From Occallatibacter sp. (lineage in GTDB: Bacteria; Acidobacteriota; Terriglobia; Terriglobales; Acidobacteriaceae): a DNA stretch of 64,000 nt. Below are positions 3,476 through 42,064 of this stretch, in pieces (the first letter of the stretch is position 1; the number at the start of each line of letters is the position of its first letter). Under the pieces are notes generated by a model. The model searched no databases, was not told the DNA's origin, and saw only the letters and a list, made by a program, of their open reading frames with translations. A program made the position numbers and the translations under genes. The DNA is taken from NCBI GenBank assembly GCA_031296215.1, contig JARLGE010000114.1:1-64000 (forward strand). Reading direction: 5' to 3'.

Positions 3476-3952
3476 ATGAAAGCTCTGCGGTACGGTGTGT
3501 TCGCGATGGTGGTAGCAGTCGCCGCCATCGCCCAGGCTCAAACGGCAAAGGCCGGAGACCAGCCCTCGGCAAGAGAACGGCTGATCGGAGCGTGGCGCTT
3601 GGTGCACATCGATGCGCCGGGGCCGGATGGCAAGCCGAGCCCCATCCCTCAGCCGAAAGGCATGCTGATCTATACGCGTGACGGCCATGTGTCAGTGCAG
3701 CTCATGTACCCCAAGCCGGCAGGTGCTGTCTCCAACGAGTACGTCCTGAATGGGTACGAGGCTTCCTTCGGCAGCTACGACGTGGACGAGGCAACGCACA
3801 CGGTGACCCATCACGTGCAGGGCTCGGTCACCGGCGACCTTCTCGTCGGCAAAGACCTTCCTCGTGTTTACGAGTTCACTGCGGACCGGCGCTTGATCAT
3901 CCGGTCGGCGCGGCCCGATGAGCACTGGTCCGTCACCTGGGAGCATTACTGA
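3476..3952 (+). CDS. Secreted lipocalin-like protein
   Basis: A 158-residue protein with a typical signal peptide (residues 1-21, MKALRYGVFAMVVAVAAIAQA) followed by a lipocalin-like domain, seen in LIGAWRLVHIDAPGPDGKPS and GMLIYTRDGHVSVQL, the pattern of the Lipocalin_5-type small barrels. A GTG at 3446 would add ten residues and overlap the preceding stop; the ATG at 3476 is preferred because it gives a clean signal peptide. It is the second gene of the AKR run. It probably binds a small hydrophobic ligand in the periplasm, but no ligand is known. Confidence 0.8.
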   Translation: MKALRYGVFAMVVAVAAIAQAQTAKAGDQPSARERLIGAWRLVHIDAPGPDGKPSPIPQPKGMLIYTRDGHVSVQLMYPKPAGAVSNEYVLNGYEASFGSYDVDEATHTVTHHVQGSVTGDLLVGKDLPRVYEFTADRRLIIRSARPDEHWSVTWEHY

Positions 3953-8828: not shown

Positions 8829-8857
8829 AGGGACTGAGGGACTAGGGACTAGGGACT
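8829..8857. repeat. Heptamer array (AGGGACT)4 overlapping the 3' end of ridA
   Basis: Four copies of AGGGACT, with one extra G after the first, cover 8829-8857. Read on the minus strand the array encodes the last residues and the stop of RidA (V-P-S-P-stop). The 19 bases 8830-8848 recur exactly at 40694-40712. Confidence 0.85.
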
Positions 8858-9248: not shown

Positions 9249-9304
9249 GATCAGGGATCAGTGATCGGTGATCGCAAAGACCGACCACTGATCACTGATC
9301 ACTG
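9249..9304. repeat. Inverted heptamer arrays forming a hairpin between gap and ridA
   Basis: The left part reads GATCAGG-GATCAGT-GATCGGT; the right part reads ACTGATC-ACTGATC-ACTG. The inner halves 9257-9269 and 9280-9292 pair over 13 bp with one mismatch around a 10-nt loop. The array begins 3 nt after the gap stop codon on the transcribed minus strand. It could cap the gap mRNA or attenuate downstream expression. Confidence 0.85.
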
Positions 9305-31416: not shown

Positions 31417-31738
31417 CGGAGGGTTAGGGAGAAGCCGGGGCGCAAGCGCGATCGGGGGGGGCGAGACTGGCCGCCGTTAGATTGCTGGCGCGCGGCCTTC
31501 CGGCGCCGAGTCGGTTGGCGCGAGAAATTTGAATTTCTTTATTGATTCCTTATCCGGTTCTTTTGTAAGGTTAGCTATGGAAATACAACTACACACATTC
31601 CATCCTTGTCGACTCCCCAAGAAAAAATAAGCTGAATTGCGTAGAAGAGCGCCTGCTCGTTTGCATTTATTTCCCCTTTTCGATGGGCGCAAAAAGATAC
31701 TGGAACTTCAACTGCAATCTCCCTGGAGGATAGGCGCA
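31417..31738. other. Leader region of the first TonB receptor
   Basis: This 322-bp space changes from GC-rich near the CheX-like gene to AT-rich in its second half, as expected for a promoter region. It contains the 14-bp palindrome GAAATT-TG-AATTTC at 31524-31537, a possible operator. I see no riboswitch pattern and no convincing open frame. Confidence 0.5.
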
Positions 31739-34700
31739 ATGGTGTATCGAATCGCTCGAAGTGTATCTACGGCGGTGTTGCTGGCGCTGGCGGTGCTGAT
31801 TGCATTGCCGGGCACGGTGGTTGGCCAGACGTTCCGCGGCGGCATCAACGGCACAGTGACGGATCAATCGGGAGCAGTGGTGCCCGGCGCAACGGTGGAA
31901 GCGACGGACACGGCAACCAATGCCGGACACAAGACGATCAGCTCGAGCGCCGGCGAGTTCAGTTTTCAGGACCTTCCGCTGGGCAGCTACACGATCACGG
32001 TAACTGCCTCCGGCTTCAAATCGACAACCGTGACCAAGGTCCCGGTGACCGCCGGCGTCATCTACACGCTGCCGGTGAAACTGGGCGTTGCGGCGGCCGG
32101 CGAAACGGTGGAAGTGAACGCCTCCGGCCTGGCGCTGGACACCACTTCAACGACGCAGACGACCGACATTCCTGAGATCACTGTGCAGGACATTCCGCTG
32201 AATGGCCGCGACTTTACCCAGCTGATCGGCTTGGCGCCGGGGTTTGCCGGCTACTCGCTGGGCGGCTTCGGCTCGGTGAACGGAACCCGCGGCAACCAGG
32301 TGAACTGGCAGATTGACGGCGCCGACAACAACGACTGGTGGCACAACATTCCCGCGGTCAATCAGGGGGGCGTCGAGAACATTGCCGGCGTTACCCTGCC
32401 CATCGATTCGATCGCCGAGTTCAGCCTGCAGACGCAATCCTCGGCGGAGGTGGGCCGCAACCCTGGCGGCAGCGTGAATCTGGTCACCAAATCCGGCACC
32501 AATGCCCTTCACGGCTCCATTTACTACTACGAGCGCAACCAGGCCCTGGCCGCGAAGAATCCTTTCAACACCCTGGGCTCGCTGCCCCTGGAGAACGTGC
32601 AGTGGGGCGCATCGCTGGGCGGTCCGTTCTGGAAGGACCACACCTTCTGGTTCACCAACTTCGAGAAGCAGAAGTTCAACATCGCTACCGGAGACACCGG
32701 GTACGAACCGAACCAGTACTACCAGTCGGCGGCTCTTGCGCTGCTGGCCAACAAGAACAACGCCTATGGCACGTATGCGCCGATCCCTGTGAATTCGGCC
32801 ACATCGCAGCTGCTCACCATTCTCTGGCCGGCCAGCCTGCTCACCGGCACTTCGCCGGGCGGAATTCAGAACGCTGCGCCGGAGTTCGGCTACAGTTACA
32901 ACGGCGTGGCCAAGGTGGACCACACCTTCAGCGACAAGCAGAGCATCTACGGCCGGGCATTCCTGGGCCAGGGAAACCAGACGGCTCCGGTGGACACCAC
33001 GGCCATCAACCCCTACTTCTTCGAGATTGGCCCCATCCACGTGTACAACTATTCGGCCGGTCACAACTGGTCGATTACTCCGGCCATCAGCAACAGCATC
33101 ACCGCAGGTGTAAACTACTTCCACCAGACCTTCTCCGACGGCAAGAGCGACTTTGCCAGCGTCGCAACGGCCGGCTTTATCACCGGCTCCCCGTTCGCCA
33201 ATTCCCCCAATATCAACATCGGCTACGACTTTGAGCCCACCGGCAACACCCCGCCGGAGGGTCGCCAGGATGTGACCGGCGCACTCGACGACGCCTTCAA
33301 CTGGACCAAGGGTAAGCACCAGTTGCGCATGGGCGGCGAATACCGGCGCGCGCAGGTGGACGAGTTCTACCATCGCCATGCCATTGGCTCTTTCAACTTC
33401 CTGGGCGGCCAGGGGCCGATCGGAGACGGCTCGGTGGCCTGGAACACCCCCGATTCCGATGTCGCGGCGCTGGCGGATTTCCTGGCCGGCTATCTGACCA
33501 AAGGCTCCATCGCGGTGGGGAACCCCGAGCGCCTGGTCGTCTCGCACGGATTCGACATCTTCGCGCAGGACAGCTATCAAGTCACCTCTGCCTTGAATGT
33601 GAACTTCGGCTTCCGCTGGGACTACATGCAGCCGATGAGCGACAACAAGAAGGATCTGTCGGTCTTCCGCCCCGGCCTTACACCGACCGGCCTCGCCTTC
33701 GTGGGACAGGACATCGGCCAGATCTTCGCCAGCGACTGGCACAGCATTAGCCCCCGCGTCGGATTCAGCTATCAGCCCAAGGGCATGCAGGGGCTGGTGA
33801 TCCGCGGCGGCGGTGGCCTGTTCTTCGACTCGCCCAACGCCAATCCCTTCCTTGACAACCGCCCCGGCAACAGCGCCCCGAACGGGCTGGAAGGCAACCC
33901 CGGCGGTTCCAGCCCGGTCTTCACCATTACCACCGGGGCTACCACGATTGTGCCCGGCCAGGAAATTATCCCGACGCAAACGCTGGCTTGCACTCAGTCC
34001 AATCCCTGCGGCGCTTTCAGCGTGTCGCCAAACTTCCGCTCCCCATACAACTTGAACTTCAACATCCAGATCGAGCAGTCGCTGGGCTCGAAGGCCTTCA
34101 TGCAGGTCGGCTACGTCGGCAGCGAGGGACGCAAACTGCTCAGCCTGCTGAACATCAATCAGCCCTACCTGGGCGGCGATCCGGGGCCTTACAGCGGCAG
34201 CTTCGGCGGCAACTACTACTCCGATATCAACCAGGTGCAGAGCATCGGAACCTCCAACTACAATTCCCTGCAGGCTATCTTCCGCACCACCGATTGGCAC
34301 GGCCTTACCTCGCAAGCCGCTTATACATGGGGCCACAACCTGGACGAAGTGACGGCCTATCGCGGCGCCCTGCCGCAGGACAGCTACAACTTCAAGAGCA
34401 AGATCCCGCACGATGCCGGCGACTACGGCAACTCCGACTTCGATACCCGCAACTCCATGGTGGGATACATCAACTACGACGTTCCCACCTTGGGTGGTCC
34501 GAAGGCGCTCACCGGCGGCTGGTCGCTGAACTCCGCCTTCGGGTTCAAGGGCGGCCAGCCCATCACCGTCTACAACAGCGGCGACACCAGCGGCACCAAC
34601 GAATACACCCAGCGCGTCAACCAGATCGCCAACCCGTTTGCCGGGGTCAGCCACGCGATCCAGACCAACTCCAGCGGCGGCAAGTATGTGCAGTGGCTCA

Positions 34701-35044
34701 ACCCCAACGCATTTGTTGCCCCGCCCAACAACACCTGGGGCACCATCGCCCGCAACAGCATCTTCGGGCCAGGCTACGAGGACTTCGACCTTTCGGTGTT
34801 CAAGAACACCAAGTTCGAAATCCACGATTTCCCCATCGACACGCAGTTCCGCGCCGAGATGTACAACCTGTTCAACCGTGTGAACCTGGCCAGCCCGGCG
34901 TGCACGCAGCTGTGCAGCGACTACTTCGGGTCCGGCTCGGGATTCGGCACCAGCGGATCGACGATCGGCTCCGGCAATTACTCTCCAGGCATCGGTCCCG
35001 GCGAGCCGTTCAACGTGCAGCTGGCGCTGAAGATCATCTTCTAG
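31739..35044 (+). CDS. Oar-like TonB-dependent outer membrane receptor
   Basis: A 1101-residue outer-membrane transporter. A signal peptide (1-30, ending GTVVGQ) precedes a carboxypeptidase-regulatory-like Ig domain (about 33-115, GTVTDQSGAVVPGATVEATD), then a plug domain (about 140-255, with VQDIPLNGRDFTQLIGLAPG and QIDGADNNDW), then a large barrel ending in NVQLALKIIF with the terminal Phe needed for BAM assembly. This architecture is expanded in Acidobacteria and imports oligosaccharides or other large nutrients. GGAGGA precedes ATG 31739; the open frame begins earlier without function. No SusD partner follows. A terminator and heptamer arrays end the unit. Confidence 0.95.
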   Translation: MVYRIARSVSTAVLLALAVLIALPGTVVGQTFRGGINGTVTDQSGAVVPGATVEATDTATNAGHKTISSSAGEFSFQDLPLGSYTITVTASGFKSTTVTKVPVTAGVIYTLPVKLGVAAAGETVEVNASGLALDTTSTTQTTDIPEITVQDIPLNGRDFTQLIGLAPGFAGYSLGGFGSVNGTRGNQVNWQIDGADNNDWWHNIPAVNQGGVENIAGVTLPIDSIAEFSLQTQSSAEVGRNPGGSVNLVTKSGTNALHGSIYYYERNQALAAKNPFNTLGSLPLENVQWGASLGGPFWKDHTFWFTNFEKQKFNIATGDTGYEPNQYYQSAALALLANKNNAYGTYAPIPVNSATSQLLTILWPASLLTGTSPGGIQNAAPEFGYSYNGVAKVDHTFSDKQSIYGRAFLGQGNQTAPVDTTAINPYFFEIGPIHVYNYSAGHNWSITPAISNSITAGVNYFHQTFSDGKSDFASVATAGFITGSPFANSPNINIGYDFEPTGNTPPEGRQDVTGALDDAFNWTKGKHQLRMGGEYRRAQVDEFYHRHAIGSFNFLGGQGPIGDGSVAWNTPDSDVAALADFLAGYLTKGSIAVGNPERLVVSHGFDIFAQDSYQVTSALNVNFGFRWDYMQPMSDNKKDLSVFRPGLTPTGLAFVGQDIGQIFASDWHSISPRVGFSYQPKGMQGLVIRGGGGLFFDSPNANPFLDNRPGNSAPNGLEGNPGGSSPVFTITTGATTIVPGQEIIPTQTLACTQSNPCGAFSVSPNFRSPYNLNFNIQIEQSLGSKAFMQVGYVGSEGRKLLSLLNINQPYLGGDPGPYSGSFGGNYYSDINQVQSIGTSNYNSLQAIFRTTDWHGLTSQAAYTWGHNLDEVTAYRGALPQDSYNFKSKIPHDAGDYGNSDFDTRNSMVGYINYDVPTLGGPKALTGGWSLNSAFGFKGGQPITVYNSGDTSGTNEYTQRVNQIANPFAGVSHAIQTNSSGGKYVQWLNPNAFVAPPNNTWGTIARNSIFGPGYEDFDLSVFKNTKFEIHDFPIDTQFRAEMYNLFNRVNLASPACTQLCSDYFGSGSGFGTSGSTIGSGNYSPGIGPGEPFNVQLALKIIF

Positions 35045-35050
35045 AGGCGG

Positions 35051-35074
35051 TGGTCAGTGATCAGTGGTCAGTGA
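35051..35074. repeat. Heptamer array TGGTCAG after the TonB receptor
   Basis: TGGTCAG-TGATCAG-TGGTCAG starts 6 nt after the receptor stop codon. It is the inverted counterpart of the array at 35216-35260, on the other side of the hairpin terminator. Confidence 0.8.
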
Positions 35075-35134
35075 ACGCCTGCCAACTGATAGCCCGCCGG
35101 CGAAGACGGAAGTGGATTGAAGACTTCAAACGAA

Positions 35135-35170
35135 CAAGAAAACCCCCACTACAAGGCGGGGGTTTTCTTG
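35135..35170. terminator. Strong bidirectional hairpin terminator
   Basis: CAAGAAAACCCCC and GGGGGTTTTCTTG form a perfect 13-bp stem with a 10-nt loop. The A-rich and T-rich stem flanks allow intrinsic termination in both directions, fitting the convergent TonB receptor (plus) and aminotransferase (minus) genes. Confidence 0.85.
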
Positions 35171-35215
35171 CGCTGCGGGGGTCGATGAAATGAAACCGCA
35201 GTTGCCGGTGGAGAA

Positions 35216-35260
35216 CTGATCACTGACCACTGATCGCGGACCACCGACCACTAACCACTG
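35216..35260. repeat. Heptamer array CTGACCA before the aminotransferase stop
   Basis: Six units of the CTGACCA family (CTGATCA, CTGACCA, CTGATCG, CGGACCA, CCGACCA, CTAACCA) plus CTG end 3 nt from the aminotransferase stop at 35264-35266. They are inverted relative to the array at 35051-35074. Confidence 0.8.
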
Positions 35261-35263
35261 CTT

Positions 35264-36484
35264 TTACGACAGATGGCTGAACGGGTGCTCGGCCAGTCTG
35301 CCGGGGAGCTGGGGCGGGACCAGGCCGGAGGTGTTGGTCGCCATGACTTCCTTGAATGCCTTGCGGAAGGCGAGCATCTCGTCGTGGGTGCCGACGGTGA
35401 TGCGCACCTGGGTGGGCCAGGCCGGCCAGATGCGGCCGATGTAAATCTCCTTGGCGGCCATGGCGGCCAGCACCTGCTTGCCGGGCCGCCCGGTTTCGAG
35501 CATGAAGCAATTGCTCTCCGACGGCGTGGTCGCATGGCCTTCGCTCTTCAGCCAGGCGATCGTGTCGACGCGGACATCGCCGATGATCTTCTTGCGCGAG
35601 GCCACCAGGTCCGGTTGCAACAGGCTGGTCTTGGCCGCGGCTACCGCGGTGATGGGCAGCGCGTTGAACCCACCGTGCACGGAAATCTTCTTCAGCAGGT
35701 CGGGGCGTCCAATGGCGAAGCCCATGCGGATTCCCGCCATGCCGTAGAGCTTGGAGAAGGTGCGAAGAACGATAACGTTTTTGCCTTGCTTCACGAAATC
35801 CAGTGAGCGCGGCTCGTCGCAGAGGTGGATGTAGGCTTCGTCGATGAGCAGGATCGTGTCCTTGGGCGCGTTGGCCACGGCGTACTCGATGTCGGCGCGG
35901 GCGGTGCAGGTGCCTGTGGGGTTGTTGGGGTTGCAGATATAGAGGACGCCGGGCGTGGAGGAAGCGGCGAGCATGGCCTTGATGTCGTGCGCGGCCGCGC
36001 CCTTGGGATCGGCCAGCGGGACCTTGATGACCGGAGCGCCGGAGACCTGCGCGGCCCACATGGGCGCTTCGTAGCCCGGGTCGGCGATCACAAGCGGCTT
36101 GTTTTTATCGGTAAAGGTCAGCACCGTGTAGTGGAGCGGCTCGCTGGAGCCGGAAAACGCCATCACCGAATCGGGATCCAGGCCCTCCATCTTGGCGAAG
36201 GTCCCGGTCAGGTCTTCCTCCATGTCCATCAGATACCGCCCGCCCCTGGGAATAATGTCGGCAATGGCCTGGCGCGCGGCTTCGCAGGGTCCGAGAGGGT
36301 TCTCGTTGGCGTCGATATGAATGCCCTTGTTGGGGTCTGCGAAATGGGGGCGCTGAGCCAGGGCGAGATGGGCTTCGGTGAGGATGGGCATGGTCGCCAG
36401 CGCCGAGGCGCCGGCGGCAAAGCGGAAGAAGGTGCGGCGGGAGAAACCGCTCGAGGCAATGGAGTCAACAACAGGCGAGGTCAT
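35264..36484 (-). CDS. Tat-exported class I/II aminotransferase (HisC-like)
   Basis: A 406-residue PLP-dependent fold-type I protein similar to histidinol-phosphate aminotransferases: DANENPLGPCEAARQAI, ICNPNNPTGT, the Asp of LLIDEAYIHL and the PLP lysine in RTFSKLYGMAGIRMGF are all present. Unlike cytosolic HisC it begins with a twin-arginine signal, S15-R-R-T-F-F followed by AAGASALATMPILTEAHLALA, so it should be folded with cofactor and exported. ATG 36484 has AGGAG nine nt upstream; a TTG at 36493 is the alternative. A periplasmic aminotransferase is rare; the substrate is unknown. It converges on the TonB receptor. Confidence 0.88.
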   Translation of the reverse strand: MTSPVVDSIASSGFSRRTFFRFAAGASALATMPILTEAHLALAQRPHFADPNKGIHIDANENPLGPCEAARQAIADIIPRGGRYLMDMEEDLTGTFAKMEGLDPDSVMAFSGSSEPLHYTVLTFTDKNKPLVIADPGYEAPMWAAQVSGAPVIKVPLADPKGAAAHDIKAMLAASSTPGVLYICNPNNPTGTCTARADIEYAVANAPKDTILLIDEAYIHLCDEPRSLDFVKQGKNVIVLRTFSKLYGMAGIRMGFAIGRPDLLKKISVHGGFNALPITAVAAAKTSLLQPDLVASRKKIIGDVRVDTIAWLKSEGHATTPSESNCFMLETGRPGKQVLAAMAAKEIYIGRIWPAWPTQVRITVGTHDEMLAFRKAFKEVMATNTSGLVPPQLPGRLAEHPFSHLS

Positions 36485-40693: not shown

Positions 40694-40721
40694 GGGACTG
40701 AGGGACTAGGGATTAGGGATT
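40694..40721. repeat. Heptamer array after the isomerase gene
   Basis: GGGACTG, then AGGGACT, AGGGATT, AGGGATT, starting 6 nt after the isomerase stop. The first 19 bases equal those at 8830-8848. Confidence 0.85.
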
Positions 40722-40751
40722 AACCTGGATGCGCCGCACACCGTTGGGTGT

Positions 40752-40791
40752 CCCAAACTTGGCACATTCTTGTTTTTGTGCCAAGGGTGGG
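40752..40791. repeat. Hairpin element between isomerase and M24-like genes
   Basis: CTTGGCACA (40758-40766) pairs perfectly with TGTGCCAAG (40777-40785); outside a 2x2 internal loop CCCA (40752-40755) pairs with TGGG (40788-40791). A second small hairpin ACACC/GGTGT stands just before it. The form recalls dispersed hairpin repeats of bacterial intergenic regions. The T-run is in the loop, so it is not a classical terminator. Confidence 0.55.
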
Positions 40792-40831: not shown

Positions 40832-40852
40832 GTCCCTGATCCCTGATCCCCG
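40832..40852. repeat. Inverted heptamer array upstream of the M24-like gene
   Basis: GTCCCTG-ATCCCTG-ATCCCCG, the reverse complement type of the AGGGAT array at 40694-40721. The two arrays flank the hairpin at 40752-40791 in inverted orientation. Confidence 0.75.
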
Positions 40853-40875: not shown

Positions 40876-42030
40876 ATGAGCAAGAGAATCGGCAAGAGCC
40901 TGGTAGTGAACGGCGCCACTCTGGTGGCAGAAGCCGCGTGGAATGCAGAGCTGAACACAAAGCAAGAGCAGCTTGTCGCGTGGATGCAGGAGAAGAATCT
41001 GGCCGGCGTTCTCATCCGCCGCAACGAAAACGTGGCCTGGGTGACGGGTGGCGCGGTAGAACTGCGCGTGCTCACACCGGGCGAGACGGGCGTGGCTTCG
41101 CTGCTGGTGACCGCGGCGGGCAAGCGCTACTACCTCACCACCGAGAACGAAGCGCCACGCCTGCACGATGAAGAATTCGGCGCGCTGGACTTTGAGCCGG
41201 TGCTGTTTCCGTGGTGGGCGGACGACACGGCAGCTGCCGCGGCCAAGCTGGCCGCCGGGCCGTTGGGGTCCGACACGCCGGGCGTCGGGACGAATGTGAA
41301 TCTTGCCCCGCTGCGCGCCGCCTTGCAGGAGAGCGAGATCGCGCGCTACCGCTGGCTGGGCGCGGAGACCGCCGCGGCCACGGTGGAAGCGTTGCATGAA
41401 GTTGAACCGGGGCTGAGCGAATTCGATTTGGAGGCCATCACGGCGGGCGGACTTCTGCGGCGCGGCATTCTGCCTTCAGTGGCGCTCTACGCCGTGGATG
41501 AGCGGATCATGAATTACAAGCATGCGGTGCCGCGCGGACGCCGGCTGAAGCAATATGGGATGCTGAATCTTTGTTCGCGCAAGTGGGGACTCGCCATCTC
41601 CATCACGCGCTTCATTCACTTCGGAGCGCTGCCCAGGGAACTTGGCGATCGGTTCAACTCGGCTGCAAAGGTGAACGCAGCTTTGCTCAACGCAAGCCGT
41701 GTGGGCGCGACTTCGGCGGAGTTGTTCAAGGTGGCGCAGGCGGCATATGCGGCGGAGGGCTACCCCGGCGAAGAGCGCTTCCATCACCAGGGCGGGCCTA
41801 CCGGCTACGGCGAGCGCGAATGGGTGGCTACGCCGCAGGGAACTGAGGTTGTCGTCAACAACCAGGCCTTCGCGTGGAACCCGAGCATCCGCGGCGGCAA
41901 GGTGGAGGACACCGTGATTCTGCGCGACGGCGTAATCGAGAACCTGACTGTCACTCCAGAGCTGCCCGTGCTGACAGAAGCGATTGTGGACGGCAGTGAT
42001 TATGCGGCGGCCGGGGTGCTGGTGAAGTAG
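40876..42030 (+). CDS. Peptidase M24 (pita-bread) fold protein lacking most metal ligands
   Basis: A 384-residue protein with a creatinase-like N-terminal domain (about 30-140) and a C-terminal M24 fold. In active aminopeptidase P-type enzymes five residues (D, D, H, E, E) bind two metals. Here the first Asp is Asn in GMLNLC, the second is Ser in LAISITRF, the His is kept near HHQGGPTGYGERE, the first Glu is Asn in FAWNPSIR, and only the last Glu remains (KVEDTVIL). It therefore should not be a dinuclear peptidase; a creatinase-like metal-free hydrolase is an alternative. It follows the isomerase gene and may act on the same pathway. Confidence 0.85.
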   Translation: MSKRIGKSLVVNGATLVAEAAWNAELNTKQEQLVAWMQEKNLAGVLIRRNENVAWVTGGAVELRVLTPGETGVASLLVTAAGKRYYLTTENEAPRLHDEEFGALDFEPVLFPWWADDTAAAAAKLAAGPLGSDTPGVGTNVNLAPLRAALQESEIARYRWLGAETAAATVEALHEVEPGLSEFDLEAITAGGLLRRGILPSVALYAVDERIMNYKHAVPRGRRLKQYGMLNLCSRKWGLAISITRFIHFGALPRELGDRFNSAAKVNAALLNASRVGATSAELFKVAQAAYAAEGYPGEERFHHQGGPTGYGEREWVATPQGTEVVVNNQAFAWNPSIRGGKVEDTVILRDGVIENLTVTPELPVLTEAIVDGSDYAAAGVLVK

Positions 42031-42036
42031 AACTAC

Positions 42037-42064
42037 AGGGAATAGGGATTAGGGAATAGGGACA
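42037..42064. repeat. Heptamer array between the M24-like and zinc-ribbon genes
   Basis: AGGGAAT-AGGGATT-AGGGAAT-AGGGACA begins 6 nt after the M24-like stop and, on the minus strand, encodes V-P-I-P-stop of the zinc-ribbon protein. Confidence 0.85.

Follow-up and report, generated by a model that had tools for sequence, protein, structure and literature searches.

The 35-kb site is located on a 126-kb contig within the 4.17-Mb draft genome of a soil acidobacterium, and was studied in a window of 64 kb (the whole stretch of DNA presented here), the features of which are collected in Table 1. A TonB-dependent-receptor-like gene and a class I/II aminotransferase gene converge at this site. Comparison of the aminotransferase places Acidobacteriaceae metagenome genomes as the closest named relatives. 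The gap between the two genes contains two heptamer arms with a hairpin between them. The left arm comprises 3.6 copies with a match of 83%, and the right arm 6.6 copies with a match of approximately 74%, adjoining the aminotransferase stop in the coding sense of that gene. These arms were described in the first-pass annotation as inverted arrays of (TGGTCAG)3 and (CTGACCA)6. The arrays are indeed present on opposite strands, but they are more degenerate than stated: an exact TGGTCAG unit is found at two places in the left array and, reverse-complemented, at a single place in the right array, the remaining units being variants such as TGATCAG, TGGTCGG, and TGGTTAG. The perfect 13-bp stem that had been reported between the arrays was confirmed, with halves at 35135-35147 and 35158-35170 and a loop of 10 nt. 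Its GC stem and flanking A-tract and T-tract (AAGAAAACCCCC/GGGGGTTTTCTT) are those of a bidirectional intrinsic terminator. The hairpin was not called in a scan with a strict terminator pattern, probably owing to a loop longer than 8 nt and a T-run that forms part of the stem. Folding of positions 35045-35266 as RNA gave -109.2 kcal/mol (z = -9.0), a value reached by none of 200 shuffles, and in the predicted fold the arms are paired with the terminator hairpin nested within, in agreement with the large nested hairpin that had been anticipated. A search of the 64-kb window against Rfam returned no match.

Table 1. Genes, heptamer arrays and hairpin discussed in the text (positions within the 64-kb window).
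Feature	Position	Strand	Remarks
Single array, AGGGACT x3	8837-8857	+	3' end of L-PSP-like gene
Second pair, left arm	9249-9274	+	GAPDH / L-PSP-like gap; both genes on minus strand, tandem
Second pair, right arm	9286-9304	-	Directly past GAPDH stop
TonB-dependent-receptor-like gene	31738-35044	+	CarboxypepD_reg + OMP_b-brl_4; start uncertain
Left heptamer arm, GTGGTCAGTGATCAGTGGTCAGTG	35050-35074	+	Starts ~5 nt past TonB-receptor stop
13-bp perfect hairpin, CAAGAAAACCCCC-N10-GGGGGTTTTCTTG	35135-35170	.	Bidirectional intrinsic-terminator-like
Right heptamer arm	35215-35260	-	Minus-strand reading TCAGTGG/TCAGTGA
Class I/II aminotransferase gene	35264-36484	-	Aminotran_1_2
Third pair, left arm	40694-40722	+	GGGACTA/GGGATTA units; 7 nt past Fucose_iso_C gene stop
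Third pair, right arm	40833-40850	-	Upstream of M24 peptidase gene start at 40876
Single array, AGGGAAT/AGGGATT	42037-42062	+	7 nt past M24 peptidase stop, sense strand

Two further pairs are present in the window, and the earlier reading of both held. The second pair folds in the same manner as that at 35 kb (-33.8, z = -6.3), and the third encloses a hairpin near 40752-40790 (-80.5, z = -5.3). The neighbouring genes of these two pairs are tandem, not convergent. With respect to the next minus-strand gene, the single array at the end of the L-PSP-like gene is upstream and in reverse orientation. In total, eight period-7 arrays were counted in the window against none in 40 first-order Markov simulations matched to its dinucleotide make-up, while the motif finder yielded nine arrays against a simulated mean of 0.025.

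The 35-kb site is one case of a genome-wide class of intergenic arrays. In a scan for exact periodicity over 445 kb of the source genome, a sample in which some contigs were picked because hits were present, 27 period-7 arrays were obtained, against 1-3 for each of the control periods 4, 5, 8, 10, 11, and 13 (neither multiples of 3 nor of 7). The common form of the unit is NNYAGKK, for example TCAGTGG, TCAGTTG, ACAGGGA, or CTAGGGA. A four-unit pattern gave 485 hits in the source genome, compared with 41 for the reversed control, and from 0 to 1077 in each of the other genomes of the genus, these hits being overlapping ones and not counts of arrays. Such a spread within one genus indicates that array copy number shifts quickly, and since arrays are gained and lost between relatives, any function must be dispensable.

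The architecture of the arrays was surveyed with the motif finder, genes being called by a simple in-house program, in samples of six Acidobacteriota genomes, 1.68 Mb in total. Of 157 arrays, a single one was located within a gene. It should be added that the reversed control of the motif finder also yields arrays (14 against 43 in genome G000), which is due in part to units that are similar to their own reversal. Of 142 arrays, 127 are aimed away from the closest gene boundary, and where adjacent arrays lie no more than 400 bp apart, 43 of 47 are convergent (-> <-), with one divergent (<- ->) and three in the same direction. The same behavior is displayed by arrays free of GGG, of which 72 of 77 are aimed away from the gene, 21 of their 22 close pairs being convergent. 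The GGG-type singles at 8837-8857 and 42037-42062 also obey this polarity, though without a detected partner. The cores of the pairs span 11-210 bp. For the 39 pairs with both neighbours called, the genes are tandem in 35, convergent in two, and divergent in two, so that tandem context is enriched (35/39 versus 583/870, Fisher p = 0.002). Between tandem genes, the first arm as a rule begins a few nucleotides past the stop codon, with a median array-to-stop distance of 1 nt, and the second arm usually ends 2-36 nt ahead of the next start. No T-run was found past the second arm (a mean of 2.1 T in 9 nt), and the stems are therefore not ordinary intrinsic terminators.

The two arms of a locus are matched to each other. 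In permutation tests, arms of one locus were more complementary than arms drawn from other loci of the same genome, the observed value being reached in 6 of 5000 permutations for G000, 20 of 5000 for G050, and 0 of 5000 for G095. Moreover, the order of the units is mirrored between the arms, with a score of 834 against a permuted mean of 750 that none of 300 within-arm permutations attained. In the orthologous gap of L119, described below, the unit differs from that at 35 kb in both arms alike. The mirrored order can come from selection on the stem or from fold-back copying. In a comparison of wobble mismatches, which could separate these two, the arms carried no significant signature of RNA (44 G-U against 33 A-C, p = 0.25), so that pairing at the RNA level is putative. 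Eight brackets occur within 20 kb at one locus (G095:C19:60001-80000), where two inverted cores are 84% identical over 61 nt, which suggests local copying of whole brackets. At G148:C16:21728-21847, a long CAGTAGT array of approximately 10 copies abuts its own inverted copy.

When 297 genomes across the phylum were searched for the CAGT pattern, 35 had it in the convergent arrangement and six in the opposite order. The polarity of the AGGACTG unit varies by lineage: genomes of genus g63 begin with CAGTCCT, while G160 begins with ACTGAGG (536 overlapping hits versus 2). The AGGACTG bracket of G160 is thus opposite in polarity to that of G239, G247, and G331, and within each genome the polarity is strict or nearly so. 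The pattern matches in genus g63 (G239, G247, and G331) have their arms directly around GC-rich, terminator-like hairpins. This is a compact form of the arrangement described in the first-pass annotation, with examples at G247:C3:263013-263087, G239:C9:57945-58011, and G162:C1:1466488-1466552. In a relative, a degenerate GCCGAGAGCCTAGG-like tandem array with a period of approximately 14 nt was observed (positions 3596-3657 of locus L164, G007:C27), possibly a longer-period version of the heptamer class.

The location of these "heptamer brackets", their fixed polarity, their convergent pairing, and the mirrored unit order of their arms are direct observations. As to their origin, the explanation that we consider somewhat probable is that the paired arrays are the co-evolving arms of intergenic hairpins. 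The bracket would be a lineage-specific, fast-changing simple-sequence repeat built from NNYAGKK-like units and framing intergenic gaps; one of its strands would always begin at a gene boundary and be aimed into the gap. The arms presumably pair, forming either a transcript hairpin or a DNA cruciform. New units may arise through slippage, while the partner arm may be kept matching by hairpin-templated copying, by selection on the stem, or by both. The stem would then lie at the 3' end of one gene, immediately ahead of the ribosome site of its downstream neighbour, a place from which it could shield mRNA ends or keep adjacent messages apart. Under this explanation, the terminator between the 35-kb arms would be an older and independent feature of the convergent gene pair. 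For many arrays no partner was detected, contrary to what would be expected of a purely hairpin-based function.

In the first-pass annotation, the arrays and the terminator were taken as one device that insulates convergent transcripts, a model now regarded as decidedly improbable. Forty-four orthologous loci were compared, in 15 of which a TonB-type gene is the convergent neighbour. Thirteen of these 15 aminotransferase/TonB-receptor gaps hold a perfect stem of at least 8 bp and no arrays. Arrays occur in only one of the 15, L119 (PMXB01000170.1), where both arms are present around two terminator-like hairpins at the orthologous position, with CAGTTC-type units in both compared with CAGTGG in the 35-kb arms. 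At four other orthologous loci (L075, L090, L106, and L118), an array is found on one side only. Relatives that keep the terminator with arrays on one side only had been named beforehand as refuting the arrangement, and these orthologues, L119 excepted, amount to that refutation. Furthermore, the majority of pairs lie between tandem genes, and strong hairpins are not enriched in 42 pair cores (3 with a stem of at least 8 bp, against 3.8 in random intergenic segments). The arms around terminator-like hairpins at the 35-kb site, in L119, and in genus g63 are what the insulating device would lead one to expect, but the array-less orthologous gaps and the hairpin counts of the cores rule out arrays plus terminator as a conserved unit. 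For the same reasons, the terminator at 35 kb is most readily interpreted as an older feature within the bracket and is probably a bystander there.

The remaining alternatives concern how the arms are generated and what they do. A purely mutational origin, in which slippage expands the arrays, fold-back template switching during replication mirrors the arms, and selection merely excludes them from genes, is rather doubtful, but is the alternative to be taken most seriously. It fits the mirrored unit order, the lack of a significant G-U excess, and the fast turnover of loci, the cores of which are unrelated except for a few short matches. It leaves unexplained the fixed polarity, the position of arrays a few nucleotides from stop codons, and the preference for tandem genes. 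There is little likelihood that the arms serve for "operon stapling", whereby mirrored arms would pair within a polycistronic mRNA and loop out the spacer of 11-210 nt, coupling translation across gaps. The stop codon, at a median of 1 nt from the stem, would be brought close to the following gene's ribosome site, and a lineage-specific factor would fix unit and polarity. An equally small likelihood is given to a mobile element with the arrays as MITE- or REP-like terminal inverted repeats spread by a transposase. Such an element would account for dispersed, intergenic arrays with inverted ends, a strict polarity within each genome, and a lineage-specific unit type. Against it, the 11-210-bp cores are not homologous among copies (only three short core-core matches), and placement flush with stop codons is unlike insertion. 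The number of Y1 transposases correlates with the number of arrays over all 60 genomes (rho = 0.47), among which are array-bearing genomes without a Y1 match, G059 with 204 hits being one; within the genus, the correlation is not significant (rho = 0.23, p = 0.17), and that for reverse transcriptase is 0.10. Neither enzyme tracks array number within the genus, and both were rejected as drivers on that basis. Least probable of all is that the arrays are G-quadruplex elements, each G4 being built from four G-tracts close to a start or stop, as has been suggested for the GGGNATC repeats. In Xanthomonas, the positional rule is indeed the same and convergent pairs occur (PMC4692102), and GGG-type units occur in the window, for example at 40694 and 42037, but arrays free of GGG obey the polarity and pair convergently as described above, and neither 35-kb arm has a GGG tract. 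G4 formation as the general cause is thereby ruled out; it could add to the GGG-type arrays.

No report of heptamer arrays in Acidobacteriota was found in the literature library that was searched. Degenerate 7-mers are known from the cyanobacterial STRR heptamers and from the heptanucleotide repeats in the P6b stem of the tRNA-Leu intron, the latter occupying both arms of the stem. These differ from the acidobacterial arrays in being intron-borne or unpaired and in having other units. REP/BIME and MITE elements are likewise dispersed, intergenic, inverted sequences capable of forming stems, but the arms described here are tandem heptamers with no conserved palindrome or core, and no transposase tracks them within the genus.

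The closest likeness is to the intergenic heptamers GGGNATC in Xanthomonas and GGGGA(C/T)T in Nostoc (Rehm et al. 2015, PMC4692102), the G-rich strand of which directly follows stops in the sense orientation or directly precedes starts in the antisense orientation. Convergent pairs number 70 and 75 in two Xanthomonas, aligned ORFs are preferred, and the repeats vary between relatives. G-quadruplexes were proposed and most copies are transcribed; no function was found. The tandem 7-bp unit, the strongly intergenic location (1/157 arrays in a gene, specific to period 7), the sense strand past stops and the antisense strand before starts, and the convergent inverted pairs (43/47) are all common to the acidobacterial arrays. 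In contrast, the acidobacterial units belong to a different phylum, are of the form NNYAGKK, often without GGG, and follow the positional rule without G4 capacity; the 35-kb arms, being free of GGG, are not of the G4-capable GGGNATC/GGGGAYT type. Mirrored unit order and co-variation of the arms, in addition, were tested in the acidobacterial set. TAACTGA direct repeats of Beggiatoaceae, Cyanobacteria, and Bacteroidetes are also 7-bp and intergenic and lie shortly before starts, in a single orientation; a binding site of a translational regulator was proposed for them (MacGregor 2015, PMC4679880). Their polarity is the same, and the reverse complement TCAGTTA fits the acidobacterial motif class. 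They consist essentially of one exact unit, which is absent from the 35-kb arms, with inverted pairs in 1 of 170 sets (PMC4679880). The acidobacterial arrays extend a poorly understood class of heptamers known from Xanthomonas and cyanobacteria. Gene-boundary heptamers from Xanthomonas, cyanobacteria, and Beggiatoaceae have been the subject of separate reports and have been explained in different ways. The acidobacterial set unites these reports under one positional rule, excludes G-quadruplexes as the general cause, and reveals that paired arms evolve jointly.
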